Positions 2,977-58,699 of a stretch of 64,000 bases of DNA are shown here, piece after piece (the first letter of the stretch is position 1; the number at the start of each line of letters is the position of its first letter). This DNA is from Marchantia polymorpha subsp. ruderalis. Taxonomy: Eukaryota; Streptophyta; Marchantiopsida; Marchantiales; Marchantiaceae. Under the pieces are notes generated by a model. The model saw only the letters and a program-made list of their open reading frames with translations, made no database searches and had not been told where the DNA came from. The stretch is taken from the NCBI GenBank assembly GCA_037833965.1, contig AP031358.1:1682001-1746000 (forward strand). Direction: 5' to 3'. The position numbers were made by a program, and so were the translations under genes.

Positions 2977-3468
2977 CTAGGAGCTCATGAAGGACGGGAG
3001 GCCGCCCTCGCCTGTCGAGGGATCAAAGGTGCGCTCCAACACATGCTCTTTGAGAGTGTCCTTGGTCCCGGGCTTGACAGGAAGGAGCGTCCTCCTCTCC
3101 TTCAAAATGTCGGGACGAGGAATGACACTCCCGGAGGATGTGCCCCCCGTGGTCACGCGGACTTTGCTGCCATCCGCCAGGTATCGAAAGATCACCCGAA
3201 CGGGCGAACTAGTCACCGGATCGATGTGCTGCAGTTTGGAGACGTGAATGGGGGATTCCATGGTGACAATTCCTCCCGGATTCTCGCCTCTTCCTTTGAT
3301 GTGCTTCTTGACCAGATTTTTCCCCTCGATGTACACCTTGTTCTTCGACCGCAAAACCTGCTGCACCTTCCCGGTCTGTCCCTTGTCCTTGCCCCCCATG
3401 ATCATCACCGTATCTCCGCGCAAAATTCTCCAGTGCTTGAACACCTGCTGCGCCGCTTTCCACCCCAT
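2977..3468 (-). CDS. Mitochondrial-type ribosomal protein uL24 (KOW domain)
   Basis: A 163-residue intronless protein starting MGWKAAQQVFKHWRILRGD. This is close to plant mitochondrial-type L24 proteins such as the Arabidopsis KOW protein At5g23535, compared from memory. The KOW segment (about residues 15-45, with MGGKDKGQTGKV) contacts 23S-type rRNA. It is followed by the family's GKNLVKKHIK, HVSKLQHIDPVT and SGSVIPRPDILK motifs. uL24 is an early assembly protein of the large subunit near the peptide exit tunnel. The MGWK methionine was chosen because it matches the family start; the open frame runs 30 codons further upstream without a good ATG. No strong presequence is visible, so organelle location rests on family resemblance. 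The gene converges on the Ser/Arg-rich gene and diverges from the repeat-protein gene at 4.2 kb. Confidence 0.9.
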   Translation of the reverse strand: MGWKAAQQVFKHWRILRGDTVMIMGGKDKGQTGKVQQVLRSKNKVYIEGKNLVKKHIKGRGENPGGIVTMESPIHVSKLQHIDPVTSSPVRVIFRYLADGSKVRVTTGGTSSGSVIPRPDILKERRTLLPVKPGTKDTLKEHVLERTFDPSTGEGGLPSFMSS

Positions 3469-4196
3469 CTTTCTCCTGCCCGCAGCAAGAAGAAGCTCAA
3501 ATCTCCCTCCCTCCGCTCGAGACGTCCACCGCCTGCAAACCTCACAGAATATCTGCAAACCCCTCTCCCTGTCGATTGCAGTAGCGCTCTTCCCTGGCCT
3601 AAAGTCTCATCTAAACCCTTGTCCCACTCTGCTTCCCACTGATGGCGCTAACGAACATCACTTGCAGGTCTTCCACATCCCGTACTCTGATTTAAGCTGT
3701 CGTCCGCTCCGGTCGACTCCAATCTGCTCACACGGTGCAGAGGATTCTCAAGGGAATGTATTCTCCTTGAGCTCGTCCGGACGCCGCGGGCCAACTGCTG
3801 GCCGGCCCCACCACCACTAGGGCTCAGGGGAGGACAGGTCCTTCCTTCTAAGTCTGTCGCTCTGGGTGTGACACCAGTTGGGTGCTGCTGAGTTCCCTCC
3901 GAACAGATGAAGGTCGCTGGTGTACCTTCTTAGTTAGGACGGTCGCTTGAACTAGGAGGGCATTGTCAAAGATTGCTGCTGATTAAAGTTGAAAACAACA
4001 GAAGCTATTGTCAAAGCAGCTTCAAGGAGGGAAATCAGAAAAGTGGATGCAATGTCGACCATTCTAGAAAGTTTCTAAGGCCTCGCTCCAAAAGAGATTC
4101 ATTCTGAGAAGTGATCCGTTCTAAATATCAAAGAGTGAAACTAGAAGACTTTCTGCTCCTCTTCGGAAGCTGCCAGTATGCAGTAGTAGCTCTTAG
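3469..4196. promoter_or_regulatory. Divergent intergenic region between uL24 and the repeat-protein gene
   Basis: About 730 bases separate the uL24 start codon (- strand) from the first exon I can support for the + strand repeat gene. It must hold the uL24 promoter and leader, and probably the promoter and any first exon of the + strand gene. Several short frames exist but none has a convincing ATG joined to a phase-0 donor. No TATA box or known operator was picked out. Confidence 0.4.
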
Positions 4197-7100
4197 TGCC
4201 TGCGTAGAGGACAACAAAAGACAGTGGATGAAAATGAGATCAAAGACGGTACTGCTTTTCAACCTGGGAAGAACAGAAATGGTGCCTAAGACCTCCTTCG
4301 TCGTGGCATTGTGAATCAGGTGCCGTGGTCGAGGAAAACCTCGACATGGTTAATGGCAGGCCACCCAATCGACCGATGCAAGGAGGGGATGGCATGCAGA
4401 AGCGATTCAAGGTACCCCCGCCCCCCGACCCTATTCCCTACCCCTAAAATGCAAAGCTCAAACGCCTCTCTTGCATCCATATACTCCAGAACCCAAGGGC
4501 ATCTAACCTGAAACCCGATCCATTGCAAGAGTCTCCCTCACATGCTTGTCCTCCATCTGGCTCGGCCGATCACAGGTCCATGGCAGAACGAGGGTGGTGA
4601 AAGGGACAATGAGTGATAGCAGAAAATCTCCCGGAGCTATGGTACGTCCACGATCCTCAACCTCGATCTAAATCTACGCATTCCCTTCGTATTGCTAGAT
4701 CTGCCCGGTACAAGTTCAGGATGAGTTACTATGGTAGTCCATAAGCCCAGGATATCATTAAAGCTCTGGATCAAGGTAGTGGTTTATTGCCAGCGTGTTT
4801 GTTGACCACTATGTTTGCCAGCGAGGAGGTCGAGTTGGAGGAGGTGGTCAGCTGGGCGCTAACGCCATAGCATATCCAAGTGGAAAGGCCTCGGGTTCAA
4901 CGGTGAGCACCGACAGCAGAACTTCATCTTCATATCCCACATCTGAGTGCATGCCAAATGTTTCAAGGCCTCAATCTGGTGAGGGTGGTGTCAACTTCAT
5001 TCTCAGGCTCTGACCGATCATTCCCGTTCGAATCTGCAGGCAAGGTTACGTCATCTGTCAAAGCCTCGCACCGACCTTTACCAGAAGCTTGCCCACACCA
5101 GAGCTCAGCTCGAAGAGGAGCATATGTCGGAATGCTCGTTCAAGGTACAAGAAACTCGACTCAAAGATTGCTATTGAATATGATTGCGAGAGATATTTAT
5201 TCCCCTCAGCCCAGAGGGAAGTGAGGGGGGAGAGTCCTTTTGCTGATCTTACAACCAGTTTTGGACATTGGGTAACCCACAGGTTTGGGCTATGAGGTAT
5301 TCGGAAGTCCTCGTCCAAATAAACTTCTCACAGAAAACTGACAACAAGTACCAATGTCATTTTTCCAGCAATTGATGAATTACAAAATCATTGTAAGAGG
5401 CATTAATGACTATGGGCAGAACTTTACCAATTCTGTTCGAAAGTTCGTTACCTGTTCACTGATTACCTATAGAGTTGTAGGTGCAATATCAGCAATGCAG
5501 CTTACTCAAAAATAAACGTAAACTGAACAAAAGCGGAGAGTGAAGAGTAAGTAAGTAGAGACAAATGAAAGCCATAACCATAAACATAGAACACGCTTGA
5601 GACTGAAGAGGAAGGACCCGTAGGCTTCGTCTACAACTTCGGTTTCTCCCAACTAACGAGTTGACAATGTCCGTATCAACTGCAGCCAAGAGTTGGGAGA
5701 AGGCCAGATCCACAGTCGCAGTATTCAGCCCCATTGATACATCGAGTTACCGGCATTGAGAAACGAGTGGATTTGAGGAAAAGGGTCAGCTTTACTCTGC
5801 ATCGGATATTCTCTTGCTGGAGTCGGGGTTATGATACATGGATTTACTGGCCAGAAATATTATTTCGAAAATTTATGCTTTCACTTAGACCATAGTTTGT
5901 GCACTGGCACTCCCATTCAATCGATTCACAGTCTCTTGCTCCTCGAACACTTCGGTCCACGTCATACCAAACCTTCAGTGTGGCACGCCGATTGAGAACT
6001 GAAGGTTTCAGACAATTGACTGCGGTCTGATGCGTCGTAATCGTGATGATCCCAGGCGAGAAAAGTGATCGAGAAGGAAGAACTGGACCAATGCTCTTTC
6101 TGGCCACAGATTAATTCCAACCCTGAGTATCTGGACTTGAATCAGTACAAGCCGATTGAAGAACGTTCCTTGGAGTATCAGGTTTGGCTCAAAAAGGGGC
6201 ATGATTCACTTGCTTCTGGTCTGTGCTTTCTGTGTTTTGATTCAGTCCATATCAAAAACAAATCTCAGCACACTTAATCTGATAACCACAACTATGCTTG
6301 GGCCCGCGGTGGTCTTACTGTCAGTCTTCCTTCGTGACCACTGCAGAGAAGGCGAGAGGCCAAAATTGCCATGGCGAGAGCTATGGAAGATCAGCAGAAA
6401 GGACTCACTTTCAGGCCCGAAATCAATCCAAATTCCATTAAGATTTTCAAGCAAGTGAGAAAATCACCTTGATTCAGGATCGGCTGCCTCTTGAGTTCTT
6501 CTGCTCTGCCCTCGTAAGGCGGGACAATTTCATGCTGAAAAATAGTTTAGTATGGATGTGGATTTCTTACGCGATGGGGGCAAATTCTACCACAGTCGGT
6601 CCAGTTTATTGGTAAATTAAAGTACTGCAGTAGGAACTCTTTAGGACACCGCACGGACGCAGTCCATGTCATAAGTGGCCGTGCGACAGTGAAACCAACT
6701 TTCTCCTCTGCATAGGCCACATACAGCACTTGAGTTCAATGCATGCCACAGAAAACACTCACCGTGGGAATGTTTAGCGCTCTTGTTGAGAGTTTTCACT
6801 CAAACTGATACTGTCACAGACAGGTTTGGAGACTATCAACGTCGCGGACAGACTAACAGCCATGGGTTCCTTACACAACGACAACAAAAATGCGGCGGTG
6901 AGATTCGTGAAAACGGGATGACGATATTTAATCAGATAGAATGCAATGTCATTATTCCACAAGAATCCTTTATTGTGTCAGAGTTTATAAGGTCCCTCGA
7001 TTCTTTTGTGTTCTGTAGGCAAACTGGTTTGGACCTTAAGATCTGCACTAACTTCAAGAGCTACACGATGGGCAATACTTCACTGTTTTCCTGGAACAGG

Positions 7101-10100
7101 CAAGGACTCTCCCAAAGGATGAGTGTACCTTCACTCCAGAAATCAACAGCAACACGGATCTGATCATACGATCATCAAAATTGCTCGAAGGATGTACTCC
7201 TGATTTCTTCTCGAGGCAGCAGTACTGGCTGCAACGATTGGAAATGAGAAAGGTAGGTTCCTCTGAGCTTTCACCAGTGAAGCCGAGGCACCGGCATCTA
7301 TTATACCGTATTCAGCAGATCTTGATATGAACAATCAAATTGAAGAGAAGAAGAATTCAAGCCCCAACTTCACCTCTCAAATACCTGAAACTTAATATCT
7401 CTGTACACACTTTTGTCCTCACTATATTAGTTTCCATGGAAACCGAGGTATTTCCAATGAAGCAAAGACGCAAAGCTGCAGCTCTGCGTTTCTGCAGACA
7501 TGTCTCTTGGTGTGGGTGAAGATGGTCCAAATAGAGGGTTCAGTGGACAGAGTTAAAGAGGTAGCATCCATGAACCACAAACGTGGGTTGTAAGCAACAA
7601 CAGGTCCTTTTGTTCACTCGGACAAGAACAGATCTTACTCAATGTCCAAAATACGTTTTCCAATGCAAGCTTGCAGAAAGCGAAGGAGCAAGAGATGCAA
7701 AATGAACTGTCTTTCAAACCGAATATTGACTCCAATTCGGATGCGATACTGAAGACATCCCCCATCCGTGAAATTTTGGATCAGCCACTCGAGCAAAGAG
7801 TAGATCGACTTTACCAACGGGACACCGAACGTCGAAAGCATATTCGACGGAAAATTTCTGTAAGTGACGGCTGTTCAAATCATAATCAACACTCAATCGT
7901 AGACCACCTAAACTCATTACACCTCACCCAATGTTCCATGTTCCTGATTGCAGAAATTTACGTGTGTTTTCCATCGTCTGTCTCCGCGCAGGAAGCATAC
8001 TACGCCCAGTTCACTCATTCGCCATCAATCGATCACACTTCTCGACTGCTGGGCGGTTCTTCGACTGCATACGAACTTTTCAAGGTAATCCAGCCAATGC
8101 TGTAAATGCTGCTGTGTGTAAATTTATGTTTCCTAATGATTACATTTACGGAGTTTTCTACAAAGGCCAAAACAAAACTCCGATTCTGTTGAGCTGTCAT
8201 GATCATGTCATGTCCATCCTGTTGAACATATGACGTCGAATCTGGTATCCGGTAATTGAGACCTGTCTCAATCTCACTGGAGGTCGGTAAGTGATGGCTC
8301 AAGTTTGCAAGGTGCCTGCAGAACGAAAAAGGTCATAAAACGCGGGAGCGAATCAAATCGGTTTTACAGGATAATTTCGAGAAGAACCATCCTTTTCGAC
8401 CGAAGGTACGTACTGTAGTGCAATTCGAGCACTATCTGTATTAGCAGATTGTCACTGCTCTGTAACCCCCAGTGAGAATCCTTCTAATCCGCTGAAGTTT
8501 GCAAAGTCAACACCTCCATCTGCTTTGTCAATTCCCTTAAAAGAATTAGTCATCCAATTCCAAACAGCAGCGACAAGTCGGGAGTTGGAGACACACAAAA
8601 ACCTCGTACCTTGGCATCATCGGTACAGTATGTCACAGGCGATCTATAAAGCTCTCAGACGAGGTCCTCATAACAATTAAACTCATGTTGTCCAAAGTTT
8701 AACTTGTGTTTAGCGTTGTTCACTGAAATCCTTATTCAGTTTCAGAATTTTTTCCGTTGGCTTCAGAAGTGCCTAGATTTCCGATGCATAACAATTTTTC
8801 AAAGTTACAAGAATCTCCAATCTTCCCAGAATGTTCATCTGAGGCCTTGGTGACCACCCCGAGAGCTAATCAGATTTGTAACTTACAACCTGTATTAGAA
8901 CAAGATGGCGCTAATTACCTCTAGCTGTTAGAATCTGTCTGTGGATTGAAGCATGTTGAATTCCAGATGAACAGATCAAGGAGCATCGAAAAAATCAGAC
9001 AAGACATGAAGGTGACCCATGAACTAAAGTTCATACAAGGAACAGACACCTTCCGAGCGCTCAGATGAATGATAAGACGAAGCCTTTAACTCGAGTTAAT
9101 GCACTATCAAATGACCACAGTCTGAGCAATCACTATGCTTTTTGTTAAAGAGTAGCAAATGTTTCAACTCTGCAGGTTAAATTTTACTTGCTGGAGTGTC
9201 GCCTCTTCACTTACAAACGGTCCTTACCACATAGGTCTCCCAGAAGTTCACATACAAAATTAAGGTGACAAATCACGAATAGGAGAAGGAGAAAAAATAA
9301 TAACACCGCACCAATCATATGCCAGTTAGATGCTTTTCTGAGGATTTATTTCACAGTAGCCTATCTATGAGTTCGATTCTGCTATGTTTTTTTATTGTCG
9401 CAAGAACCTTGGACTTGTCCACTTCTTGGCTTCTGGGAAACACAAATCTCAGTCTCCCGACCATAGCCAGAAAGATAACAAGGATGAACGGAACGAAATG
9501 ATATATTTCCTTACAAATGCTCTTATAATGTGAACCGGAGTATGTTGTTGAAGTTTTACTTATCAATGGATTTTCGTCGCCCTTTTAACAATTTTGAAGC
9601 TCTCATTTCCTGTCTTGTGTGTGGTCTTCTCGCGACGGTAAATGTCGTTAAAAAACAGCACAGGTCATTCGAGAATGTAGGCGTACCATTAGTCAATCTG
9701 GAGTTGACTAGTCATATATAGACTTAACTCTATCATTCTCGTGGCGTAAGTCAAAGAAGGATACCACGTACTTACACTGCTCTGCTCGCTTGTCTTCCTG
9801 CTCAGTTGATATCCAACGGGGCACGCAGGCCAAGCGCAGACAAAATGGAAGATATGTTACATCGGCGTCGACAATTTCGTCTGGTGTGATCAATACAACA
9901 ACCCCAGTTCTTGATGCAGAAGTTGAAGGAATGCAAAAGTTTTGCCAAAGATGTGTCTACAAGTTTGACTACTGTATACGTGTGAATGTGAATGTATTTG
10001 AGGAATCTTTCTTTCAAAGACACAATTATTGGCTGGAAGCTTGTGAACATATAATACAGAGGACCATGCAAGGACCTGCAAATGTGCTCGTACTCATCCT

Positions 10101-11325
10101 TATCGGCTGCAGGAGAAGGCACGGGTCTTGGAGGAGATGAAGGTGATACGAGAGCTTCAAGAATTCAAAGAATGCACATTCAAGCCTCAGGTGAATAGAG
10201 CACCGCCAAAGGATCAAGAACCAGTGATGGTCAAAGGCCTGGGAAGATTTCTGGAGCTTCAGGACTTGGCCAAGCAGATGAAGAAGGATCAGGAGGAATG
10301 GGAGAGAAAGATCTTCTACCAGCATGTACGTTTCACGTCCCTGATTCCATCGACCTATATGTTATGCATGGCACCCGATTCTGCAAAATATTTTAAACTC
10401 CCCGGGTGTTGCCCCACATCTTCAGCATATCTCCATCAGCCTTGCCACCACTGCCACATAAGGTTTTGATTTCTTGCGAAAGACCAGACACACGGACTCA
10501 CAATCTTGTCAAAGGGATGTTCCACTGGGAGCGACTTGTGTCAAGTTACCACGTCGCTCTCAGGGTTGCACCGTTGCAATCTCCAGGGTCCTACATGGGC
10601 CGGGGATTTCAAGCCATACAACGAAAGGGAGATAGAAATCATGATGACAGAGTGTAGCTGACTCCGGAGTACATGTCTTGCAAACAGGTATACGCGCTGC
10701 CGAAGAGACAATATACCATTCCCAAGCCCTTCTCCTTCGCACACAGGCTTACTAAATCCTACTCCGCCAGGCAGCAGAAAGAGGAACGTCGCACCGGTTG
10801 CACGGTCCGCTTCCTATTCCACAACAAGGTCAAGGAACGAAGGTGCGCTCCATATCTGAAAGCCCTAGCCATGACTGCGAGGGTTGGCTGACCGTAACAT
10901 ATGAAAGAAGAATAAAAATTTTTTAAAAGGAATAGTCTATCGTCATCGAATAACTCGACTCCAAGAATTCCAAGAACGATCCCACCCAGAACTACTTGAC
11001 GAAGGCTTCAGGGTTAGAGGAATTTCCAAACGAGTCTTTTTGATGTCGATCATTTCTACACCTTTTCCATCCGCCCTTACCGCGATGGCTGCCAAACTGC
11101 TGACAGCATTTTCGGGAACATTCATTACAGCATTTTTGCCGCGATTAACGATCACGGGTGCTGTGTGTTGCATTTGCAAGCAGTGAGTTCGTGGACTTCT
11201 ACGAGGCGTCCCATCCGACGCCCAAGAACCCGAAGTGGAAAGATGTCACCAGATGGCTGAAGCCCGAGGACGATCCACGCTTTAATCCGGCCGACGTTCA
11301 GAACGATCTCTCGTTTTCAGCGTAG
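4197..11325 (+). CDS. Multi-exon F-x-P-x-[I/V] repeat protein, probable cilium/centriole-associated
   Basis: Unnamed. Exons deduced: 4197-4248, 4320-4411, 4576-4641, 4822-4902, 5007-5144, 5686-5784, 6056-6181, 6347-6454, 6820-6897, 7100-7252, 7677-7859, 7992-8084, 8322-8405, 8507-8605, 8967-9011, 9806-9883, 10113-10325, 10688-10842, 11184-11325. Joined in order, the protein repeats a unit in which a basic helix leads into C-[ST]-F-x-P-x-[I/V]-[N/D]: SECSFKPRV, QCSFWPQIN, LTFRPEIN, CTFTPEINSN, LSFKPNIDSN, CTFKPQVN. Short R-L helices such as EQRVDRLYQRDTERRK lie between. The C-terminus has a GLGRFLELQDLAKQMKKDQE helix, then a TIPKPFSFAHR motif, ending at a TAG at 11323. Such repeats occur in conserved proteins of flagellated eukaryotes (general recollection), so a role in the sperm axoneme or basal body is inferred. 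The 5' end is missing: no ATG precedes 4197 in frame, and the first in-frame ATG is near 4347. Exons around 8507-9011 and 9806-9883 are least certain. Confidence 0.7.
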
Positions 11326-13445: not shown

Positions 13446-16400
13446 ATGGCGAGTGTCGCTCTGGGCGGCAGTGCTGTCCATTTGGCCAATGGCTCTGGCG
13501 CGGCGTGCGTGAATTGCTCGACGCTGCGGAGCTCGAGAGCTCTCGCTAGCTCACAGAGGAGCTTCCGAGGAATCCCACTGGCAGCAGGAGGGGGCAGGAG
13601 CTCGACAGGCGGCGCCAAGGAGCATTCGGGCTCGAGCTCGAGTTCGAGGACGAGAGCGCAAGCGCAAGCCGTGGACTCATGGCCGTCGCCGTCTGCAGCG
13701 TCGACGGAGCCCGAGACGGTGCAGCTCGGGAGGTCCGAGGTCTACGTGCCCAGGCTCGGAGTGGGCTCGTGGTCCTGGGGCGACGCCTTCTTCTGGCACG
13801 AAGGCGGCTGGGACGGTACGTGACCTTCTCGACCCTTCTGTCGAACGAACCCGTTCCTGTCCCTCGCTCGGATCGGACCACCGGGTCCAGAACTGCCCTC
13901 CCGGGTCGCTGTCGAGAAACATGCAGTCCGCCATCAGAACCGCCGGACGAGGACGACGAGATTCTTCGGAACAGGCTCGTAGGTCGATCGATGGATGCAG
14001 TCGTCGTATTCGTCGTCCGAGTCGGGAACATGTCGATTTAGCGACGTCGTAGAGGCATCAAGTGCGTCGTCGGAATTGGGACTATCTGACGAGGCAACGG
14101 CTTGGGGGTGGGAACGTCCGCGTGTGCAGATAGGAAAGCGAAGGAGGCCAAGGCTGCTTTCGAGGCCAGCGTGGACTCAGGCCTGCCCTTCTTCGACACC
14201 GCAGGTAACGTCTCTGTGTCCCCGGCTGCGCCATATTCTTTCTTCTCCTGGCCGTGGGAGTGAACATACGAAATTCATGAATTGAGGACTTGAATGGCCC
14301 CCAATCTGCGTTGCAAATTCTCGATGTTAATGAATTTTCGAATGAATTTTTTCGGTCCTGGACCTCGTAGAATTGCAGTGCAGCGCCGTCCGAGATTGGT
14401 CGAAACCAGTTGCCTGTCTCGGGAATGACCTTGCACAAGAGAATCAGTTCCAATTACAGTGCAAATAATTGTTGCTTGAATACCTCACTACCGAACTATG
14501 ATCTGATCACCACCTGGCTCACGTTCGCTTTCTGGTGTCTGGGGGTTTTGCAGAGGTTTATGGCCAAAAGGTGCGCCAGTGGAACTCTTCAAACCTTTGT
14601 CAGGAATTTGGGTTTTTGAGTGGAGTAAAATATCAGTCTAGCTCGGTCTGTTTAGAGTCTTTCCGTATTTGTTACGGTACTTGCATTCGATGTTTTAGTC
14701 CGTGAGATGAAACTGGTATTATACAAGATATTAAGGATAGTAATGATTGTTAGGTTCAGAATTTGGACTTGAGCCAAATTTGGAGATTTTAAAAATGACT
14801 AATACGGTTTTCGAATTCGGGGTTCGTTGCTCATCTTTTTCTCCCGAGTGGAATCTGCATTCAGGGCAATTTCATTACTTATATTTTGCTTCATGAAATT
14901 GCAGTGGGGAGGAGGTGATGATTCCGAGACTCTCCTCGGGAGGTACGTTATAATTCGGAGGCAACGAGTATTATTTCCTTATGTACGCCTCTACTGTAAT
15001 GCCTGTGTAGAATAACCAGTTTCTATGTTGGAGTCAATCACCGGAGAACTGTGGATGAATGTTACTCTCAGGTTCATCAAGGAGAGACAAAAAGCGAAGC
15101 CTACAGAAACAACGAAAGTTGTGGTGGCCACCAAATTCGCAGCTCTGCCTTGGAGGTTTGGCAGAGGTAGCGTCGTCTCAGCCGTCAGGTCTTCACTCCA
15201 ACGCCTCGGCATATCGCAAATAGACTTGTACCAACTGCACTGGTACATCCGCCTTCCCTCCCTACCTCGTCCAGTGCCAAAATCAGTAATGGATATCAGC
15301 TCCTCTTCCTGCATCCATAGAAATGTTCCTTCTTCTTTCCGGACGGTGATGGTGGTGGAGGATTGATTTATCAGAAGCTATGATGGTTTATATTGCATCG
15401 GTGCACGTACATGGTCGAGACTTTGGTTTCGGTGGTGTCGCCTTTGTAGGTTGATTTAGGCCTTATATCATAAGCAGGCTCGAGTGATTTGATGGTTTCT
15501 GAGACTCACTGACTCGCACTGGACGATGCTGATTTCGGTGTCGGTGGCTATTCTGGATTCAACAGGCCAGGGCTGTGGGGGAACGATGGTGAGTGCTAAA
15601 CCCTAAACCCTCGGAAATCGTCATGGACTCTTAGATCCAAGTGTTGAAGCCAGTGAGGTGTAGCGGGTCGTTCAGACCGAGGCCTGAAGGAAGTTCTGGA
15701 GCTGGCACTCGACTACAAGGAAGCTTGATTGTTGTCCTTGCACTGTGTTATGAAACGGTGCAGCATTCGTCGATGGATTAGCGGATGCGGTGGAGTTGGG
15801 ACTCGTGAAAGCCGTGGGAGTGTCCAATTACAAAGGTACTGCTACTTTCCCTTGTGCTCAACCCGGTAGCTGCAATGTGCTTCCTACATCCACGCACAAA
15901 TCTCTGTGTATACTCCCGAGTGGCATTCATAGCCCCATCTAATTAACACCGATTATTCCCTTGACATTTTGTCAGTAACTCTTAAAATCAAATCAAGGGC
16001 TAGAAATACAACTTTTTACCATTACTCTTGACAGATTTTATCTAGCCCACCCATTTGCCAGAATATGCAGGCAGACTCAGATTTTCCTGTGATACGGTGG
16101 GATTGTAGGTCATAACATATCAGCAATTAAAACCTCGTTCCTCTTATCACTTTCCGAGGACTGAGCTTTAGGATCATATACGTCTGTGGGTTTTTTATTG
16201 ACATCTGGGACGCTTTGGCCGAGTGGTTAAGGCGTGTGCCTGCTAAGTACATGGGGTCTCCCCGCGAGAGTTCGAATCTCTCAGGCGTCGTCCCACCCGT
16301 TGCTTTTGCTTTCCGAACTCACTTAACCTAAGGTTCTAACTTTTCCGTCCATTGGACGGACGGACGGACACATAGCTAGACAGATGTCCCTGATCTGAAA

Positions 16401-21473: not shown

Positions 21474-24400
21474 TTAGTTGCCAACCTGCCAGAACGTTGT
21501 CCCCAGTTCTCCCTGCAGAATACTAGCTCTTCGTTCCTCAAAAGAGTACTCTTGCAAACTTGGTGTGGTGTTCTCGCGGTCTACCCATTCACCCGTCCGC
21601 CCCGGTGAAGACTCGGGACTTCTGCCGGATGACTTGCCTGGGCTGCTACAGCTCTGCCTAGTTGAGCTGTCTTCAAAAGAATGCCCATTCGACTGAGGCG
21701 CAGCTCCAGAGACAGGGGAAAGAGGGCAACGTTGCTCTCCCTTTTGCGGATGTGGTCCTCCGTTCGAGAAGTTTCCAGATCCACCTGTTTCATACAACGA
21801 GTCTCAAGAATTAAGCTAGCCGATGCAGAGACGTTGTAATTGGCTAGACTTTGCTACAATTCACTTACTCGGTAATGCTAACATTAGCAAATGTAGACTT
21901 TGCTACAATTCACTTACTCGGTGATGCTAACATAAGCAAATGACTTTCGACCAGTCCCGTGCATAGACATCATTACTCAGCACAATGCATACAGTCCATT
22001 TACCAATAGGGCAAATGAGCGAGAGGTCGCAGTAGACGAGTACCTTCTGGCCTCGAACCTAAGCGGCTGCTCTCGTGGACATAAAAAAGGCAGGCAAATG
22101 CAATGCAGACCCGGTTGATGAAAGAAGCGTATTTACATTCAGGGAATACCGGGCCAATAGTCGAGGCGCGTGGGAGGGGATTATCCAGCCTGGGGGGAGG
22201 TGGGATCAGACCCACCTGCTGATGCAAGTGAGGCAGTATCCTCCTTGTTTATGGCAACATAGTTCAATGGTGCTGTGGGTCGTTGTGTTAACTTGCCGCT
22301 CTTGGCTCCATTTATTGAGCTCAATCTTGAAGGAGTCACGCCGTTAACTCTCGGCATCAATAACTCCGGATTAGAGGGTTGCAGCATTGCACCTCCGAGG
22401 GAGAGTCTCCGGTTAGCTTGGGTAGTACCACCGTTACCGTTTGCCCGAAGGCCACCACCGGCTTTCTTAGCACTCATACCACCTTTATTGGGACTTGGTC
22501 GAGAACCAAACAAAACCTCCTGCTCGTTCATCAGCTGTTCTTGGAGACGCTTTTGATCCTGTGATTAGAGATGCCACCTTATGTGAGTTTCTAGGTAAAG
22601 TACATGGGCCGTCCAGACCCCCGCAAATATAGAACAATGAAATCATCCCAGACTATCAACGGAGAACGAGTTTCAAAGTCGTACCCTTGCTCTCCTTTTC
22701 TCTTCTTCCTTTTCCTGTCTGAGGAAGTTGTACTCGTCCAACATGGCCAGCAATCGAACCTGCGTAAATATAGCTCTGTTAAAAAGCCTGCCATCGAAAG
22801 GAAACGAAGAATACGATAACAATTCAGAACTCCTACATCAAAATATGAGCTGAGGGATGTGAGCTAGGAGATTACCCCGTCGTATAAGAAAGGAGTTCCT
22901 CTCTCTTCTTCCCATGCTCTAGTTCTTGATGTGAGAGACTCCACCAACGCTACAAAAGGCAATCGTTGAAATTGTCAGTCGAACACTCAAATCCCCGTTA
23001 GAATCAACAGAAAGGGCAGAAGATAGCGGTAGAATACGACATTTCGATGTGCTGAGTAGAACTCACAAGGTAGTTTATTCACAGTAGCCCGTGCTCGTTC
23101 TGCACGCTTGAGATTGATGTGGGCACCTTTACTCGCGTTATATCTGTTATCATCCTGTGGAAGACCCAATCCAGAGAAATTGGGTGAGATTGGAGCGAAG
23201 AAATGACGCCAAAGAAAAAAGTACATTCGCCGGTCATAAGGAAGGTCAATTCACCACGTTCGAATATACCTTGTTGTAATCTTCTAGCCAACTTTCTTCC
23301 TCACAAGCAGCTAGCCATTTTTCCATCTTCTCCATAATCTCTCTTCTACTGTAAGCCTCCTCCCTGGCCTTTCCTATTTGCTCCTCCAGGCTTCCCAAAA
23401 GCTCTGAAGGATCCACAATTCCTGCATAGCCATTCACAAACACTTCAGAAATCCCACAGCACATGAAGATTTAGTATTGACGGAAGAATGAGATTTGTTA
23501 CTTAAAACAAGAGGGATAGGAAACCGGTACATACCAGATTCAATTAGCGCATTCGTCTTATCCGGAGCAGTACTGGCATCAGGCTCCATATGTGCTCGCC
23601 TGCAGATTTCCTCCAGTTCCGTCCGCTTCTTTTGTACGAGCTCCTTCATCTTACTGGCTTTCAGTTGGTCTAACCTTTCAACCTCAATCTCGGCCTGCAG
23701 CCATGTTACGGGAGTTAGCAACAACTTGCGAAGAGGAAAAATAAAGTACTCGAGAACTATTCCAGAAGAACACCGCGAGCGGCTATATTATTACCTGCTC
23801 AATTACGTCCAGGGTAAGAGCACCGGGTGCAGTCACTTCATACTCAGAGGCGGCAATATTACACGTTATGTGTTGGAACATTTGTTGCTCATCCGCTGGG
23901 GTGTCCATGAGATTCCAGAGCTCAAGCATTGTCGTACCCAGGTCTTGAAGCTGCAACATTTATCGGATATCCACGAATTAGAATCTAAAAGAGAGATGAG
24001 TTGCGAATGACGAGCCAAAAAGACTCAAAAGCGGGCCCGCTTTTCCCGATTATTTCGTGCTTGCCTTTTGAATGCGCTGCTTCTTTTCATCCTGCAGCAA
24101 GTGAATAGACTTAGCAAGTCTCTCCAGTGTCTCGTTATTGATACTCTTCAACTGGCCGCCAGTGGAGTCATCCAAACTCGGGTCGACTTCGGTGATAGTC
24201 TTAAAGAAATCCATGCCCAACACAGCGCATAGCTCATGGACGACGTTCACGTACTCCAACACCTGAAGAAGTCGGTCGTTCTGCGCAGGGAGATAACCAC
24301 AGGGTGAGCGTGCTAGTAGGCTAAAGGATGAAGCGAGTACTGGGCGGAAACCAAACCAACAGCATTTCATGCGGCTCCTCCACTTCTCGAGATGAAGGCT

Positions 24401-25442
24401 TATTGAAACGAACCTTTTCCTTCTGCAGAGTCTGCAGCTGAGCATGATACTCATCCAGTCTTCTAAGGGTCAAGTCGGCATCAACTGTGTTCAGGGAAGC
24501 AGTGTCGGTCACTGGTGTCCCTGAAATTTCACCAATAATCTTTTGAATCTGGGTTTTAACTTCTACAAATTGTCTAGCCCGCTCCTCTTTCTTTGCTCGC
24601 AGTTCCTCCAGCTGTGGCGCAACCGCGGCTACTTGCTCCTTCAGAGTGCCCGTCCGTTTCTCCTGCCAGAATGAAACAGCCCCACAATCAGACATGGAAT
24701 GGTTGACATTACTAGAAATGACAGAGAACAACTTCTTGAGCGGGTTGTCCGCACAGCAGGATAGTCAGAAATGACGAACGTTGCACGGAGTTGGACAGCC
24801 AGTTCGAGAGGGAACTTCTCGATATACGTAATAGTCTCCGCTGGCGCAAGACGCACTGTCTGGTGAAGGGACTCCAAGTACTAGTTCACATGAAATCAAA
24901 TCACATAAGACAGCCTCAAGAAACTAACCCATTGAGTGGGTCGGTCACCAAGAACAGAGAACAGATTCGCAAGCTCCGCCTCGGCGTCGGCCAAGGCTTG
25001 GTGCAAGCGGGCCCGGGCGTGACTGGCTTGGTCCACCTTTCTTCGGTACACTTCTAAACACTCCTGCTCGAGCTGCAACAGCATCTTGTCCCTCTCCGCA
25101 TCACTTTCTCCGACCTCGTCCCAAATGTGCTGAATGAATGTGCACACATCAGAAACATTGAACAGCCAGTCAAAACCAAATGCTAAGGTTCTCAAGCCCT
25201 ACTCGTTGGTAGACAATTGACTTACTCGACCCTCGTAGACTGCGACTGCGAGTCACATGGCTTCTCGTGCTACTCAGAAAGGACGACTACATCTTAAGAG
25301 AGTTTCAGCAAAGCAGACAGATGCGTGGCGCATTTGCTTCATCCAAAGCAGAAACATCGGCCGTGCAGGTGTCGTTGCAAACCTGCAATTCTCGAAGTAG
25401 GGAACCACAAGTAGTGTCCACCTGCTGCTGTTGTTGCCCCAT
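21474..25442 (-). CDS. MAP65: MAP65/Ase1/PRC1-family microtubule-associated protein
   Basis: Cross-links antiparallel microtubules in the phragmoplast, spindle midzone and cortical arrays. Twelve exons, read 25383-25442, 24929-25129, 24414-24662, 24065-24280, 23795-23950, 23535-23694, 23270-23421, 23067-23154, 22876-22949, 22685-22759, 22216-22558, 21474-21784, join in frame to 694 residues. Near the start, [20 protein letters not shown] and [16 protein letters not shown] match the plant family. Coiled-coil rod follows to about residue 340 ([24 protein letters not shown]). The conserved microtubule-binding block is at about 385-480: [46 protein letters not shown] and [21 protein letters not shown]. 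The tail carries ALFGSRPSP-like and NRRLSL motifs, then a Ser/Gly/Pro-rich last exon. Arabidopsis MAP65-1 has about 590 residues, so this tail is roughly 100 longer. SRPSP, NRRLSL and SP sites in the tail suggest kinase control. Intron 4 has a GC donor. Confidence 0.95.
21845..21942. repeat. 49-bp tandem duplication in the last MAP65 intron
   Basis: Two adjacent 49-base copies (21845-21893 and 21894-21942) differ at only two positions. They lie in the intron at 21785-22215. The low divergence suggests a recent duplication. Confidence 0.9.
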
Positions 25443-27329: not shown

Positions 27330-28484
27330 CTCATCACGTCAAAGACTCGACTCGATCCCATCTTACCCATCATTCACGACCATCCATGACCATTCAGCGG
27401 ATTGGCGAAACCATGAAAAGAAACTCCCATGGACATACTCATGTACCCGTTGCAGGCACGCTTGCATGCATGCATGCCCCATACGCGCATGCATGTGCCA
27501 TCTACATTTTAAACAATTTAAACTCGAGCGCCGAAGCGCGCCGCCTGTATGGTTCATGCGAGCGAGGATAATGAACTTCGCGTAACAGACACTCGCTCCC
27601 GTTCTGATTTTTTTACTCCATTCATTTTGTACCTCTCTAAGATTATTGTTACGAACCATTTTTCTCTTCCTTTCCATTCGGCTTATGTGCTGTATCGTGC
27701 TTGAGATGTCAATTACGAAAAATCTTGATATTCGATTTGACAACAAAAGCCATCATAGACAGAATGTCAAGTCTTCCATGTTTCTGTACACTCTTCACGC
27801 CAAAAATTATAGTTTAATGAGTCGGGTGTTGGGAAAAAAACTCAAGAAATTTTGGGAATATTCCATAAACCTATGAATGCAAACCATCAAGTTTGGACTA
27901 AACTTCAATGGCTCACAATGGAAACAATTTACTAATGAAATTACAATTTTTAATATATACAAGATAAAGGTCTAACGAGAAATAAATGCATCTACCACTT
28001 CTGGTACTATCATTGAATTAACAATTAATAGTAACAAGTATACTAAATGTGATCAACAAGTTAGACTTTACACTTCTAGTTCAAGGAAAAAAATTAGAAG
28101 ATTGTTCATCATTTCAACGGAGGTTATTATGATTGTAAGAGTTTTTCAATTACAAAATTTGTACTATTTTACTTCCACATATCTCAAGAATGAACTTCAT
28201 TGATCATTTGTGAAGATAAAAATTAAATTAAAAGACTCAATGAACTAAGATTGTTATAAGTATCATTACATTCATCAATATATGATGATTTTGAAATTTA
28301 TCTTTGTATCAGATGTTTGTATCACATATTTAAATTTTCTAGAGATAATGATATCATCAAAGTTATTTTTGGTAAACTATCAAAGAAATTTAAAATTTTA
28401 TTTTACAATTTTTTATACAAATTTAAAGCAAAAAATGTAAGTGAGTTGGCAACTACTATGAGATAATAATATTGATATATATAA
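27330..28484. other. Start of the gene-poor region
   Basis: AT content rises steeply after about 27.6 kb. A GCATGCATGCATG alternating run sits near 27.47-27.49 kb. No coding signal is supported. Confidence 0.5.
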
Positions 28485-28893
28485 GGGAATGTTAAAACAA
28501 CGACACAAATTGTTAAAACGACCACACTGAGATACTAAAAAATGTTTAAACAACCCTTACCACGCTTTTTTGATGACTTATCAAAGAACTTGGTCACGCT
28601 TCTCGCATCTGGCTGCTTCCTTGTCATCCACACTAGCCAAATCTTACCTGCTCCTGGCGCAGACAAGTATGGTTGCAAGCTATACTTCCTCGTTCCTATA
28701 GAACTCCTCAACAAATATGGCACACACGAAATCAAGATGGTCAGACAGAGCGCGGGCACCCTGAGCATTCAAACTAAAAATGTCCCTGCATACAATCTCC
28801 GCATCCGTCAGCCTCTGTCTGGCCCTTATAGACTTGAGTGCAAAAAGATTTGTTTTTGATTGATGACACCTTTGTGGTTGTTTTAACATTCCC
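28485..28893. mobile_element. Non-autonomous TIR element (MITE-like), 409 bp
   Basis: The ends are perfect 17-base inverted repeats, GGGAATGTTAAAACAAC at 28485 and its reverse complement ending at 28893; similarity continues a few bases inward. The flanks look like an 8-base target duplication with one mismatch (ATATATAA left, ATATATAT right), as in hAT elements, but the AT-rich site makes this unsure. A partial copy of the end (TGTTAAAACGACCAC) lies just inside the left terminus, a subterminal repeat. The interior is GC-richer than its surroundings and holds a 105-codon frame (28542-28859, +) and minus-strand frames, none matching a transposase I know. Confidence 0.8.
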
Positions 28894-29642
28894 ATATATA
28901 TGTGTGTGTGATGTCAACATGCTTACATTAGATTTATTATCTTATAAAAAGTCAAACAAACAACTTTAAATTATTTAAATGTTAACTACAAGATCAAAAT
29001 AAAAATTACGACATGTCAAGATTTTGTTGGAAAACATTTTATCAAATATCAACCGTTTATCAATTGAAGATACATATAAACTACAATGCTCCACATTTTG
29101 TATCAAATGTGTGTCTAATTGGATCAACATAGTTTTGACTAATTTTATTGCATGACAATATATTCAACACACACATATTGATATTAATAAAGCATTATAA
29201 CGGAATTTTTTTTATCTTCTTGAGGTTAATATTTATATATTTAACAAGAATCAAACAAGAATCATACAATAAAGACAAGTGATAATAAAAGCACAATTTG
29301 ACAAATAAGTACATAATACGTCATTGATTGCTACGTAAACGGAAGAAAAACACAACAGATTGTATTGCTAGTAATAAAAACCTTGCAACGAGATCACATG
29401 CTCTGATCAGATTGCACACGCGAATACTCAATCGCTTCACTTGTACACCCGTCCCGTTTTAAATCGCGCACCTACAAGCTTTCTGTTGCAATTTCAAGGG
29501 TTCATCTTAAGACAATAGAATGAATCACAATGATAAAGTGCATTTTCCAATAGAACATGAAAAACATGTGTTAGTAGAGTAATTTTCCAACACGGGTTAG
29601 TTAATCTCACCAAGCTCAAAAATCACACTCATTAACGTAATT

Positions 29643-29660
29643 ACTTTGATACCAATTTGT
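29643..29660 (-). mobile_element. Possible LTR-retrotransposon primer-binding site (relic)
   Basis: On the minus strand this reads TGACA, two bases, then TTGGTATCAAAGT. Plant LTR elements primed by initiator tRNA-Met carry TGGTATCAGAG just after an LTR ending in CA, so there is one mismatch in eleven. No paired LTR, gag or pol frame was found nearby; at most this is a decayed fragment. Confidence 0.25.
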
Positions 29661-30783
29661 CAGGTTTAAACCAAGAATCAATAAATACAATAAAACAATT
29701 CAACACAATGAGTAAACACAAAACGTGAGATGTTGCGTGGTTCTCAACATTCAAGTCCAATTGATGATTTTAACGGAAAGGGTCATCGTAATAGAAAGTA
29801 GATCTTCAAAAGGCAAACCACACTTTTCATACATATATCAATGGCTTAAATTGATGGATACTAATTTTTTTCATTCATAAGTGAATCAAGGTTAGTGATA
29901 TAATAATTTTGATCTTTTCATTATTCCAAAATTTAAAATATCAATCATAATCTAATTCCATGTAATGTTATTACCACTTTTATGTGCTGACACATATAGG
30001 ATGGAATATTTACTCACTTACTTCATACGACATGTATGTATTGCCCCCATCATGTTATACACATTGGTTCATTAGATAGCAAATTAATCTACTAAAGGTA
30101 AAGGGCTTCACAATATAGTAACATAACATCATCACGTTAGATGCTTCTATGCTGGTGGAGACTATTTACATGCTTCACAAGTAATGTAGGCGATTGATCT
30201 AAACAGTTAGGGTGCTTTGGTTGCAGTATGAGATATCTACCAGTGCAATGCAATGGGGTATAGCTCTATCCTACCGTTTTGGTATACTTCATGTTCTACT
30301 TGATGAAGTCTTCCTAATTCTCTCATATACAACTCACTCCTCCAGATAAAATTTACCGTGGCACAAAACATTTTCATTGTCTACTTTACCTACAAATACT
30401 GCACAGGAGTGAATAAGCAACTCCAGGAATTTTGCTCCCCAAGTTCCTCACAGTGTCCAAGTGCCTTCAGTTCACGAAATGCAAGAGGTGTAGCAGAAAG
30501 AGCGATGCGATCCAGCAGAATAAGATTTCTGGATAGATCTAGGGAGCGGAATCTCCCGAAAGGAGAATGAGCAGCAGCAGCTACGGATGACATTGGGTTT
30601 GGCACTCATGCAGAGGAGGCAGATATCGGGCATTCTGCCTCTACCTCATATCATCGTCCGCAGTGCTGCGCTCAAGACAGATCCAACAGTGCTTTCACGG
30701 ACTATTTATGGCCTATGAGGCACGCGGTCGAACTAATCTTCAGCGTCTGAGCTTGCATTCTGTTCTGTTGCATAGCTCCAGCA

Positions 30784-30845
30784 TCTTGTACATCGAATCT
30801 CACGTCATTACATTGCGTTCGATGTGAGATTCCATGTACAAGATT
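30784..30845. repeat. Imperfect hairpin, 24-bp arms
   Basis: Arms 30784-30807 and 30822-30845 pair at 22 of 24 positions across a 14-base loop. The sequence lies in AT-rich non-coding DNA. Confidence 0.85.
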
Positions 30846-32228
30846 TGTAACAACAACTTTTCATCGCATATTACTCTTCCTTTCGCATTAGAGGTTTCCA
30901 AATCAGATGCACAAGATCATGGACGGGAATTGAATCCATTTGAGAATAGTACCCAGTATTCGTTCCCATTGATCTTTGATTTACGCTTGAGTTAAGCATA
31001 TCCATGAATAAAAATTTTAATGAGTGAATTTAGAAACATTGTTTTTTCTTTTTTTGTCCAAAGCGGAGCGAAAAACCGTGTTTGGTCTAAAGTGTTATGA
31101 CAAACTATCAGAACCCATGGAATTTTTGGTTTGATATAAACATATCCTTAATATATGTGTGGGTGAATACAGGAAATGATTATATTCTCATTACAATTAA
31201 ACTCGAGGGTCTTGTGGTCATAATTGATGTGATGCATATTTTCCATTATATAATATCTTCCGAGCCTTAAGGGCTTGATGAAATCTTGCATACTTCTTTA
31301 AAATAATTTTCCATGGGTTATAATCTTCTCAAGCCAAAATGAAATCGCAATCACAGGTAATATCTTGAAGTTTACAAGGTATGTATTAGGTTTTCGTGAT
31401 TGTTTTTCGATTAATTTCTTGAAATCAAATTCTACGAAAGAGCTTACTGTTATAGGTATGTTATGAAAACCCCTTCTTCCTTTCGTTCTTTTATCTTTGT
31501 CATTGTCATGTTTCCATAAGAATTTAATGAGTTTAGCAGCAGTCTATATTTTCTCTTAAGATCATGCCGCTTAAATCTATGATGAATTTTAAGAATTGTC
31601 ATGAAATTAGTCTGTAATTTCCACTTTGTCTTTTGATGGCATTGGCTCAGTTTTGTTCTCAAATGTTATGTTCATCTTTCTCATCGAAGCCAAATAGTTT
31701 GTTTCGTTCTGAGAATACAAAAAAGATTATGTACGTGTATTATGATATGAGTTGGAGTTTCCCATTTCTCTAATTATTCCCTCATGGCGCGTAGACATTA
31801 CATCAAGCAATTTTTTACTTAAAGAACTTATCCTATATATCGTTGTTTATTAGCTTGGGGGCCTCTATCCCTAACCAAGTGTACTTTCTGGTTATGAAAT
31901 CTTTCGAATCCGTGTTTCAAATAACCTAAATTCATGCTTCAAGCTCTTGAGATCTGGAAAGTACTTTAAATTTGATGGTTTATATTCCAATGGTTGATAT
32001 GCTCAAACAAAACCTTGCTCATTATAAGGTAAAGAAATAAGTCAAATCGGGTTAATAAGCTCCGGGCATCTTGAAAGCGCTAGGGATCCGCTAAAACAAT
32101 AAGTAAAAATCACAGAAGGTTTTGATTACGGTTGAACAAGATAAAAAGCATGGGGAAACACGTACATGGACATAGATTTGCAAATATCGGAAGCGTAGTA
32201 ACAATGAGCTCCAGTGCAAACCAGCTTC

Positions 32229-32269
32229 GATGCTCTTGGGGAGCTGCAGACCAGCTCCCAAAGAGCATC
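32229..32269. repeat. Hairpin, 18-bp arms with 5-base loop
   Basis: Arms 32229-32246 and 32252-32269 pair at 17 of 18 positions around the loop CAGAC. The stem is about half GC, unusual for this AT-rich neighbourhood. Confidence 0.85.
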
Positions 32270-33535
32270 CCATTGTCTGTTAATGGAGAAGCGGTTAGGA
32301 TTCGAGAATCCACGACACATGTTGCTCCTTCTCACAAGAGCGAGCCATGCAACAGCAAATGAGTGGATGAGTCAAAATGCCTCCACAAGTCCATTGATTC
32401 CCTTCTGAACGGTGACAAAAGAGGGGCACGTTGAAGGCGTCAAAAAAACGAAGGACGTTCAAAAAAGCGTGACGGAATCCGAATTCAAATGTTTCAAATT
32501 TAGGGGACTAAAGATGGCAAATCTGATAACATGAAGCTTCTCGGGTCTGCAACCTCCGGGCTGACTCTCATTCAGGTTTACCTCAGATGGCTTTTCGGTA
32601 GGTCACCATGATTCTAGAAGACTAGAATTCCGCATCATACTCATAACCTAAACACCATCTCACACAATCTCTCAAGGTATCACTCCAACTCATACACTCA
32701 TCGACACTCCAAGGTATTGAAAATTTGTCACTCTTTCATATATGAAACAAGTCTCTACATATGAACTCTTTAAATTTGCTTAAGAGTCTCTTCCCTACCT
32801 CTCTTTATATATTATTTGAAAATTTATCACAGTAACAAATGGTAATTCCTTTCTAACCTACTTTTACAAAGATAAACCATAGTAAGGTTGACTAGTTATC
32901 AATATGTGGCAACATGCCAGTGGACTCCTAAACCTTCTAGATTTTTACCAATCCCTAGATTGAGATGGCGACATGCCATTTGTGCCTTTCCAACTTCTAG
33001 AACTTTCACTTTCCACTAAGTCAACATTAGACTTAGTCTAACCAATGAATTACTCCTTACTTTAGTCAAACCAATCAAAACTAAACATGAAGTCCAAAAG
33101 TATTTTATCTTGGAATCTAGACTTTTGTACAAGACAAAATAGAAGCGTTCACTCAAATCTTCTATAACTTCTCTAGTTATTCCACCAAGTATAGACATTA
33201 TAGCTAAACTATCTAAACTTAGTCATAACTAGCTAGATTTAGTCATGACTATCATAACCATGATTATCTCTTTGGCTAATTCTAGTTTTATTTCACACAT
33301 GCAATATCCGGTCTTACAGGTCCAGGCATTTTCACGATGCCCGAGCCAAATTTGGACAGAAATTAGTATCTAACGCAAATTTGTAGGCTTTCCAAGTGGC
33401 TTTTGGAGGGAGAAAGTGTTTCGTTTGAATATAGTATGACTGACATGTGAGCATGGTTCTTACACATTTATTTCGTAAAGTGTGTACGAAGTAATATGAT
33501 GCATACTTTCTCTTGTTATCCACTTGTACCGTTGG

Positions 33536-33604
33536 TAATATAGAAAAGAGTATGGGAAGATCCATCAGGTCTTCGTGGAAAGCAAAAGAGTAACATGGGG
33601 CTAG
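33536..33604 (+). repeat. Dispersed repeat, copy 1
   Basis: Shares with 46967-47039 the order TAATATAG, GGGAAGA-CCATCA, GTCTT and ATGGGGCTA with similar spacing. About 80% of bases match over the first 37, then the match weakens. Likely a diverged transposon relic. Confidence 0.55.
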
Positions 33605-34432
33605 TTACTAGTAGAATCACATAAGAAGTAAATACTTCATTAGAAATTCATTCAATGAAGATTAAAGACTTTACAAAGAACAATAGCATATGAAATAACA
33701 TTGATCCATGTGATTGATGTATTCTAAGTATCAACACCTCATGTTTGTTATTTAATTCGGGTTTATAATAAAGTCAATACAATGTACTAATGAGTATGAA
33801 GTATGAGTTTTCACAAAGTCATATGTATTGAATTTGTGTCACAATGTTGCAAATTTAATTTTAACCTGTTTTTAACTTTTATTGATTATTTATTACATCA
33901 ATACTTATGTTTTATGAGAAATTCATCCTCAAGTGTCATACAAAAATCATGATAAAGAATTTTATCATGTTTTTTAATAGGAAAAATTGCCATGTAAAGT
34001 TGAAAAAATAAATTATAATATATTAGTTTCAAATATGTACAATTATAAATAAGACAGATAGATTTTAATTTATTTGATAACAATATATTTTTGAACATGA
34101 AATCAAATATTAGATTGATCATATTGTAATAATAAGTCAACATATAGAAATATATTCATCTTCAATTCAATCTTAAATTATAATCCAAAGATTTATCATG
34201 GAAATTGATCGTTCAACTTGGAGACGGTGCCAACTTTCTAATTGTAGAGTACTATAGTGGCGTTCTAGCAGCACAAATAGACATTATCAGTATTTTGTTA
34301 CTCACTCTTGTAAACATCAATTGTATTTGCTCTTCCAATATCACTATTAATATAGTATCCAATATTACTTTGAGTGTTAGTGCATGGAGCTTCAAGGGCT
34401 ATTTCAAGTCTTGTATGAGTTGTCATTCGCAT

Positions 34433-34460
34433 TATATATATATATATATATATATATATA
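34433..34460. repeat. (TA)14 microsatellite
   Basis: Twenty-eight bases of uninterrupted TA inside the AT-rich block. Confidence 0.95.
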
Positions 34461-37400
34461 CAACTTATTCAACTATACTAACTTAGATCAAGCTAAACTA
34501 AATTATCAAAATTACTAATGTGAAATCAAAACAATCTTCTACTTGATACATGTTGTAAGTATTGTAAACTTCATAATCTACACAATTGCTTCACGGCAAA
34601 TATTAAATTAAAAATGTAATCGACATTAGTCAAATAAATAAAACTAACTGGAATAATTTGTAGTCAAAATAGAATAAACTACAAAAATATTAAGGTAATA
34701 AAGTTGCAATGATTCAAATTATATTTCTTATACAAAATCTTTGAACTCACTTTATGTTTACTAAAGTTCTTCAAGGTTATAACTTTGGTCAATTCATCGA
34801 TTCTATTGAATTTGTGGTCAATACTGTCTAGCTCAGTTTTCTTCTCAAATTTTTAATTATGTAAATGTGATTCATTTTTTATTCATCATTTGATTTTTAA
34901 TAAATTATGAATCAATTTTATTATCACAATGAATAATTTAGTGCTTCAATCTTATTTTCAACCATATAATTTATTATGTTGTTTTTATTGTATCTATATA
35001 TTTAACTTTTGTTCTTGATTGAGCTATGCAATTTTGCAAATATATATTTCTAACTAATACATCACTTACATATCGAATATAGATACATGTTTAATTATAT
35101 TTTTTAATGTCAACATCTTGACTATAATTAGCATCAACATTTTATTGTAAGCATTTGGTATTGTTTGATAAGCCATGAAATGTCAAAGCATAATGTTTTT
35201 TATACTTTAATAACATGAAATGAGATTTATTATATTCCAATGCATCTTTCTTATATTTAATTTATCATGTGTTCATCTTGACCATAGCTCAAACATTAAA
35301 AGAAGTTGTGCATATGATTAGATGTTTAAGAATTGTCACTATTGTTTCATAAAAAATTAATGACATATTTTTCTTATCAATGACATTGATTAGATTTAAG
35401 CTGCAAAAAGATTAAAACGTGTCATCAAGTGAGTTTATACTACTTTAAAATCGTCAATGTTAAACTATGAATCACACATTGAATATATTTGACTTGATTT
35501 AGATTTAATCTTATTCGAATTTTTCAATTTTTTAATCTCAATATACTTTTGAATTTTTTTTCAATACTTCATTTTGAATAAAGATTTAAAATGAAAATTA
35601 AATTTCAATCTCATTATGTAGAGTTCTTGTCAAAATAAGTAAATCATCTACATGAGATTGTAAAAAAATGAAATTGAAGATTTCATTGACACATATGAAT
35701 CATACATATTTTGTGAAAATCCTTGTGATTCCATGAATTTATATAATGATTTCACCAATATATGCATCAACTTATCTTGATCTTTGTTCTCATAATCAAC
35801 AAATTGTGTCATATAAAATTTTTGTTTGAATGATTGATATAAAATAACTTAACTATATATATTCAATTAATAATTAGAATGATTATAATTCAATTTCAAC
35901 TTCTTAATTTCAAACTCAATGTATATTGGATGATGTCACATCATTAGATGTATAATGATCAATCTTTCTATCAATAAAATTAATGAGTGGAAAATTTACT
36001 TTTTGTCAATATTTGAAACTTGAACATTTTTTCACTAATCAATAATTAGAATCGATGAAAAAAAACATTGAAATTAACAATAATTTAATGAGTTAGTAGA
36101 TAATATAAACTACAATACTTCTCATCACTAGCAAATTAAAAAAAATAACATTGTTAAGCGTATGATGCAACTGAAAGAATAAAGATGTATGAAATACACT
36201 GAAATTCATTGTGATATAATTTAGATGATGTCAAAAAATTAGTTACATTAGAGTAGAATGATTTATCAAATACATTGCAACTATTTGTGACACAATTCAT
36301 ATGGCATCAAGAAATCAATTACATAAAAAACAAAATATGTACTAATTATAATGTATTTTTAAGAGTTTCATTCCAATAATCATAAAATAAATCAGAAAAT
36401 CTTAGCATATTGAACATATTATCAACAATGTTTGACTGATTTTTTCAGATTAACGTGTTATTGGGAAATATAAACTGTAATTAGATGAAATACAATTTTT
36501 TGTAATTATATTTTTTTACTCCTCGTAGGTTTACGTACTCACTTAGTCTATACTCAATTTCACATTATGTCTAATATGAGTCTCAACTTGAACTTTTCAA
36601 TTTTTAAAAACTATAAAGATCTAGAACTTTTGTGTGTGCAAATAAATGAACACAAATCTTAAATAATCAACGATTCAGCATATATTTAAAACTTTCCAAC
36701 AAGTTAGATTTTAAGAGAGAAAATACAAACAAAAGTAAATTGTGCATATTCATATAAATCTTTGGAATTGTGATATTCATCATACAGTTGGATGTTTATC
36801 ACGTGTTGGAAGCAAATGGATGTATAATATTCAAATATACTAAATCTAGTACTAAGATGACTCATGTATTATATTTTAGGTTTATATATATGAGTAAAAG
36901 TTAACTATACTCATTGATGATAGTAGCTTGCTACCTCAGATTTGTAAAGTTAAGTTAGAGTTGTATGAACAATTATGCAGACATCATATGAAAACTTTGA
37001 TGTCAAATTTCAACATTTAAAAAATTGTTGTAAGTATTCAACTGATGCTTATAAACATATAGCATTGATTCAATTACATCAATCTAAACAATCATTATAA
37101 TCAAATAAATAATTTCCGATTAATGATTAATTTTTTAACTTTCATTATGTATAGAATCAATTATGATTATTTTTGAAAATGATTATTCAAAAGATATATT
37201 TTTAAATAAATAAAATGAAAATCATATTCATGAACATGTCATTAAATTCTGATGTAGTTTATGAAAATAATATTTTTTTTATTTGATCAAAATGAAGTTA
37301 TTATTACAGGTTTTATATTTATATTATAAAATTTACAAATAATTATTAAAATCAGCAATAATCTATAATTTTAGTTTTGGAATTAGGTCGGAAAAAAATA

Positions 37401-38018: not shown

Positions 38019-38046
38019 AATTTGTGCATTTTAAAATGCACAAATT
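38019..38046. repeat. Perfect 28-bp palindrome without loop
   Basis: The 14-base arms AATTTGTGCATTTT and AAAATGCACAAATT meet at 38032/38033. With one mismatch the symmetry extends about six bases further on each side through TTAATTAA-type sequence. Confidence 0.9.
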
Positions 38047-58625: not shown

Positions 58626-58668
58626 AGCCGCGCGGACGGTCCCCCATGTCGCCACTCTATCCGCAATC

Positions 58669-58696: not shown

Positions 58697-58699
<3 letters not shown>

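Follow-up and report, generated by a model that had tools for sequence, protein, structure and literature searches.

A many-exon Marchantia gene for an unnamed basic F-x-P-x-I repeat protein, a candidate microtubule-lying component of the male gamete

Among described systems, CIP3 of Toxoplasma gondii (TGME49_225020, PDB 9y9z) comes closest to the protein that is the subject of this study. It is a long, extended protein on tubulin that belongs to the conoid, a parasite organelle that is absent from plants, and the part of it that we compared holds two copies of a C-T-F-x-P-x-[I/V] motif, at C570 and C623 (the second at 622-629), i.e. 53 residues apart. Another Toxoplasma protein, SPM1, which is located in the microtubule lumen, likewise has a short motif that is repeated along a tubulin-bound chain. 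CIP3 is described as a molecular glue of the conoid fibres, in which it is wrapped around protofilaments 2-5 and reaches through the tubulin wall, and SPM1 as having six Mn motifs (both in PMC12819142); the triple deletion of cip1, cip2 and cip3 is reported to leave many conoids disrupted or collapsed (PMC5740107). In a window of 64,000 nucleotides of Marchantia polymorpha DNA (i.e. the whole stretch that was analysed) we find a real-looking, many-exon plant gene for an unnamed basic repeat protein. Its motif copies, which are 47 to 67 residues apart, may correspond to the pair in CIP3 with its distance of 53. It differs from CIP3 in that there is no significant sequence match between the two and in that the 37-residue spacer of CIP3 bears no clear likeness by eye; it has seven copies, as against the two in the part of CIP3 that we compared. 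Two further families have to be considered on account of the element TIPKPFSF: its K-P-F-x-F part resembles TPX2-type motifs, the TPX2/WVD2 proteins being equally basic and helical but different in their main repeat, and P-K-P-F-x-F near the C-terminus presumably recalls the P-K-P-F element of FAM161 proteins. Repeats of the form E-C-T-F-x-P-x-I-N are, we assume, also present in uncharacterised proteins of flagellate protists.

GT-AG splicing of AG/GT-bounded intervals of the forward strand, beginning with an ATG at 4346 and closing with a TAG at 11325, yields 16 exons that encode a basic protein of 591 residues (114 K+R versus 79 D+E); since the exons were selected by eye and with regard to motif and phase, the 591-residue model is a proposal and not a proof. 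All 15 introns are GT-AG, no in-frame stop precedes the final codon, and 14 of the introns are in phase 0, the last one only being in phase 2. The exons have a G+C content of 0.490 versus 0.437 for the introns. When codon-position bias was scored over the three frames in a leave-one-out manner, the claimed frame came out on top in 10 of the 16 exons and not in those at 4576-4641, 4822-4902, 7100-7252, 7992-8084, 8967-9011 and 9806-9883, with a small shortfall in 7100-7252 and 7992-8084. An enclosure test (where enclosure means an open, phase-0 interval bounded by AG and GT) compared the six unsplit motif copies, the intron-split seventh being left out, with 3000 random open places drawn from the window outside the gene. 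At a lenient donor cut-off all six copies were enclosed versus 277 of the random places; at stricter cut-offs the figures were four of six versus 116 and 85, and at a further stricter one three of six versus 13. We consider the spliced gene model to be well supported.

The model bears out the original prediction in that motif copies on the same strand merge into one protein once small exons are joined, in that no single open frame displays the repeat (the forward-strand open frames hold the motif in separate pieces), and in that the stop codon falls at the predicted end, 11325. The start that had been placed at 4197 shifts to 4346, the first ATG of the model and itself a proposed start that is unproven, and the expected number of about 19 exons comes down to 16, with two more short ones possible (5722-5784 and 9235-9264).

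All exons lie on the forward strand. The proposed first coding exon (4346-4411) begins with the ATG, ends at a GT donor and scores best in the claimed frame. Exons 2 (4576-4641) and 3 (4822-4902, Gly-rich) are less sure, as codon bias does not speak for the claimed frame in the one and prefers another frame in the other. Exon 4 (5040-5144), which is backed by an open frame, splice bounds and codon bias, has at its end an extra half copy of the motif, SECSFK, at about residue 104. The two possible additional exons, both from a scan of the gaps and both outside the model, are one at 5722-5784, with neutral codon bias, and a micro-exon at 9235-9264, for which codon bias is weakly positive. Open frame, splice bounds, codon bias and motif combine in exons 5 (6056-6181, first copy, CSFWPQIN), 6 (6347-6454, second copy, LTFRPEIN) and 14 (10113-10325, seventh copy, CTFKPQVN), and exon 7 (6820-6897) is supported by splice bounds and codon bias. 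The third copy, CTFTPEIN, is found in exon 8 (7100-7252; open frame, splice bounds and motif, codon bias neutral) and the fourth, LSFKPNID, in exon 9 (7677-7859), where it is accompanied by a long basic helix and where open frame, splice bounds, codon bias, motif and a structure model provide the evidence. Exon 10 (7992-8084) holds a degenerate fifth copy, FTHSPSID, and is recognised by this motif, codon bias not being in favour. The sixth copy is divided between exon 11 (8322-8405; splice bounds and codon bias), with the first half HPFRPK, and the less sure exon 12 (8967-9011), with the second half, in which codon bias prefers another frame; exon 13 (9806-9883), where the claimed frame is not on top, is less sure as well. 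Exon 15 (10688-10842; open frame, splice bounds and codon bias) includes TIPKPFSF at approximately 10715-10738. This element had been expected at the C-terminus; it is indeed near it, but begins 89 residues ahead of where the model ends. Exon 16 (11184-11325; splice bounds and codon bias), the last, is reached via the sole phase-2 intron and runs to the stop.

The repeat itself stands out clearly. The strict pattern [ST]F.P.[IV] occurs five times in the joined protein versus a maximum of two in 20,000 residue shuffles, and, at the DNA level, five times on the forward strand of the region versus a maximum of three in 400 dinucleotide shuffles. The joined protein thus does not reach the six or more strict copies that had been expected, the sixth strict match of the region, near 10041, being antisense. 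Beyond the region the window contains three strict matches on both strands together, none of which is followed by N or D. With the relaxed pattern [TPS][FH].P.[IVM][ND] seven copies are found, at residues 120, 169, 220, 273, 330, 377 and 444, two of which (HPFRPKMN and FTHSPSID) match relaxed patterns only and are degenerate in that they depart from the strict form. Residue shuffles of the joined protein gave at most one relaxed copy in 20,000, a flattering figure since the pattern was fitted after the copies had been seen. The spacing, which was not used in that choice and which depends on the exon model, amounts to 49, 51, 53, 57, 47 and 67 residues, i.e. a period of about 50 that is fairly regular as judged without a null model. 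A repeat of about seven units, each consisting of some 50 residues around F-x-P-x-I, is on these counts a sound result.

For the exon at 7677-7859 (61 residues) a single-sequence structure model, made without an alignment, reached a mean pLDDT of 84.1 and a pTM of 0.44. It shows a helix at 2-10, the motif loop, a helix at 19-27, a short helix at 30-34 and a helix at 38-60, so that for this single unit the prediction places the motif in a loop between helices. The spliced model, the motif copies, their spacing and the helix-loop-helix of this unit, all computed here, are supported; what we infer is tubulin binding, an 8 nm register and a location in the male gamete. In the arrangement that we envisage, the protein would lie lengthwise on a microtubule, with every unit (about 50 residues) contributing an F-x-P-x-[I/V]-[N/D] loop as a putative tubulin contact followed by helices, one of which is long and basic in the modelled unit. 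With a helical rise of 0.15 nm per residue, a length of 50 residues would span approximately 7.5 nm, which is near the 8 nm of the tubulin dimer, and by this measure the seven units could clamp roughly as many dimers in a single protofilament. The two degenerate copies and the gap of 67 residues are not predicted by a strict 8 nm register.

Known families offered little guidance. The whole joined protein matched no Pfam family at E up to 10, and three pieces of it gave AAA_26 (one piece, E 0.16) as the sole match, negatives that are limited by the HMMER filters, which discard most matches above E of about 0.1. A scan of NCBIfam gave nothing at the curated cut-off; AAA_26 and TrmJ (E 0.088), the hits of the Pfam and NCBIfam scans, lie below such cut-offs and were dismissed as chance. 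In PDB no chain was found with the whole joined protein at E up to 10, and two pieces, three motif profiles and an X-spaced query retrieved no significant match; a second X-spaced query, composed from the letters of CIP3 itself and used only for reading the spacer, gave a low E-value that carries no information on kinship. CIP3 was the best PDB match for two of the three profiles, at the non-significant values of E 1 (profile A2, for which it was the single sequence matched) and E 0.39 (A3, for which it was the top one of three); it was recovered neither by the longer profile A4 nor by a two-unit consensus query, which matched nothing at all in PDB. The remaining A3 matches, a ribosomal protein (E 1.3) and a UBC-domain protein (E 3), are plainly unrelated, and a bacteriocin-biosynthesis protein (E 0.8) and CD4 (E 2.7), both from A4, were set down to chance, as was P57-M5, a PDB match at E 3.5. 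The link to CIP3 may be called coherent, but on these values it is statistically weak. One 143-residue piece (of the 591) gave 2 and 86 short-pattern matches in viral and prokaryote contigs, respectively, and no relative. Literature searches with the motif in several spellings found no paper, and for the gene none was recognised from titles and the starts of abstracts.

We put at roughly 0.45 the probability that this real spliced gene encodes a long repeat protein of basic character and that this protein lies on microtubules, most likely those of the liverwort male gamete. A structural role in the cytoskeleton would fit what is seen and modelled, i.e. a basic, repetitive protein with helix/loop units and, as a weak lead from PDB, a tubulin-wrapping protein. 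The same basic character, together with the K-P-F-x-F element, would also suit a microtubule-associated protein of general function, acting at cortical, spindle or phragmoplast arrays in the manner of TPX2/WVD2, in which TIPKPFSF would be the microtubule-binding element and no special tie to sperm would exist. This reading leaves the seven other motif copies unexplained, and Pfam, which we take to include models for TPX2 as well as FAM161, showed no TPX2 match in the whole protein or the three pieces at E up to 10, for which we deem it unlikely. A scaffold of the FAM161 type at centrioles or basal bodies, binding other centriole proteins instead of the tubulin lattice, is suggested by P-K-P-F-x-F near the C-terminus, and it would agree with the formation of centrioles for sperm only in liverworts; the FAM161 domain was equally missing at E up to 10 in the whole protein and the three pieces, and we rate this scaffold as distinctly unlikely.

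Since basic repeat proteins presumably occur in many settings, the protein could instead be an extended adaptor that presents short linear motifs to a partner outside the cytoskeleton, such as a component of chromatin or of membrane traffic. The fairly regular spacing of the copies and the tubulin-wrapping lead, weak as it is, argue against such an adaptor, to which we give as little credence as to the FAM161-type scaffold. Highly improbable, finally, is a decaying gene or a false joining of exons from two genes: it could invoke the six of 16 exons that lack support from codon bias, the two copies that are off the strict form and the deviating phase of the intron before the last exon, but it is opposed by the enclosure of the motif copies and by the unbroken frame, the 15 GT-AG introns and the phase 0 kept over 14 of them (traits for which the exons were chosen).

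Returning to a repeat protein on microtubules, the likeliest site in a liverwort would be one of the stable arrays in the male gamete, whether axoneme, basal bodies or spline, because sperm, which is flagellate in the complex thalloid species, is the only place where liverworts form centrioles, axonemes and the spline. The sperm flagellum or basal apparatus is a plausible, putative site. The spline and flagella are described in PMC6290024, the methods of which also give RRCSGTT as the DUO1 consensus. This consensus is absent from 3475-4345 and from the 2 kb upstream of the gene, a mild negative for expression in sperm, given that the window as a whole averages no more than 0.44 sites per 871 bases and that no requirement for the site is known. 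If the proposed role is true, the protein would be a further structural component of the sperm cytoskeleton of plants, which is poorly charted, and F-x-P-x-I at every 50 residues or so would be a simple sequence rule for finding lattice-binding proteins that escape profile libraries; should orthologues track flagella, the gene would belong with those that seed plants lost together with sperm motility. That an unnamed family, with one unit of about 50 residues per 8 nm dimer via F-x-P-x-I, is common to the plant sperm flagellar apparatus and the apicomplexan conoid, as a molecular trace of the shared origin that has been proposed for the conoid and flagellar roots, we regard as very unlikely.

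A 187-residue piece searched against the genome (241,466,482 bases in nine contigs) revealed no second copy, as all four matches listed, the counts being lower bounds, fall in the gene itself; a close paralogue is thus not seen in this genome among the matches listed. One of the contigs measures 5.6 Mb and the other eight 24.2-33.2 Mb, and a location on a sex chromosome was set aside since the window is on a contig of 24.2 Mb and not on the 5.6 Mb one. Head to head with the repeat gene lies a gene for an L24 ribosomal protein of the 50S/mitochondrial type (2980-3606, reverse strand; PF17136, E 1.4e-17). Elsewhere in the window, long open frames overlap on both strands at 56362-58697 (355 aa on the forward and 413 aa on the reverse strand) in a G+C-rich, skewed segment, and Pfam gave nothing for them at E up to 0.01. 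An exon of a MAP65/ASE1 microtubule cross-linker is present at 24324-24764 (reverse strand; PF03999, E 6e-9) and a tRNA-Ser with anticodon GCT at 16209-16290 (forward strand). From 28001 to 46000 there is a long A+T-rich stretch, where G+C is 0.22-0.37 per 2 kb as against 0.41-0.55 before it.
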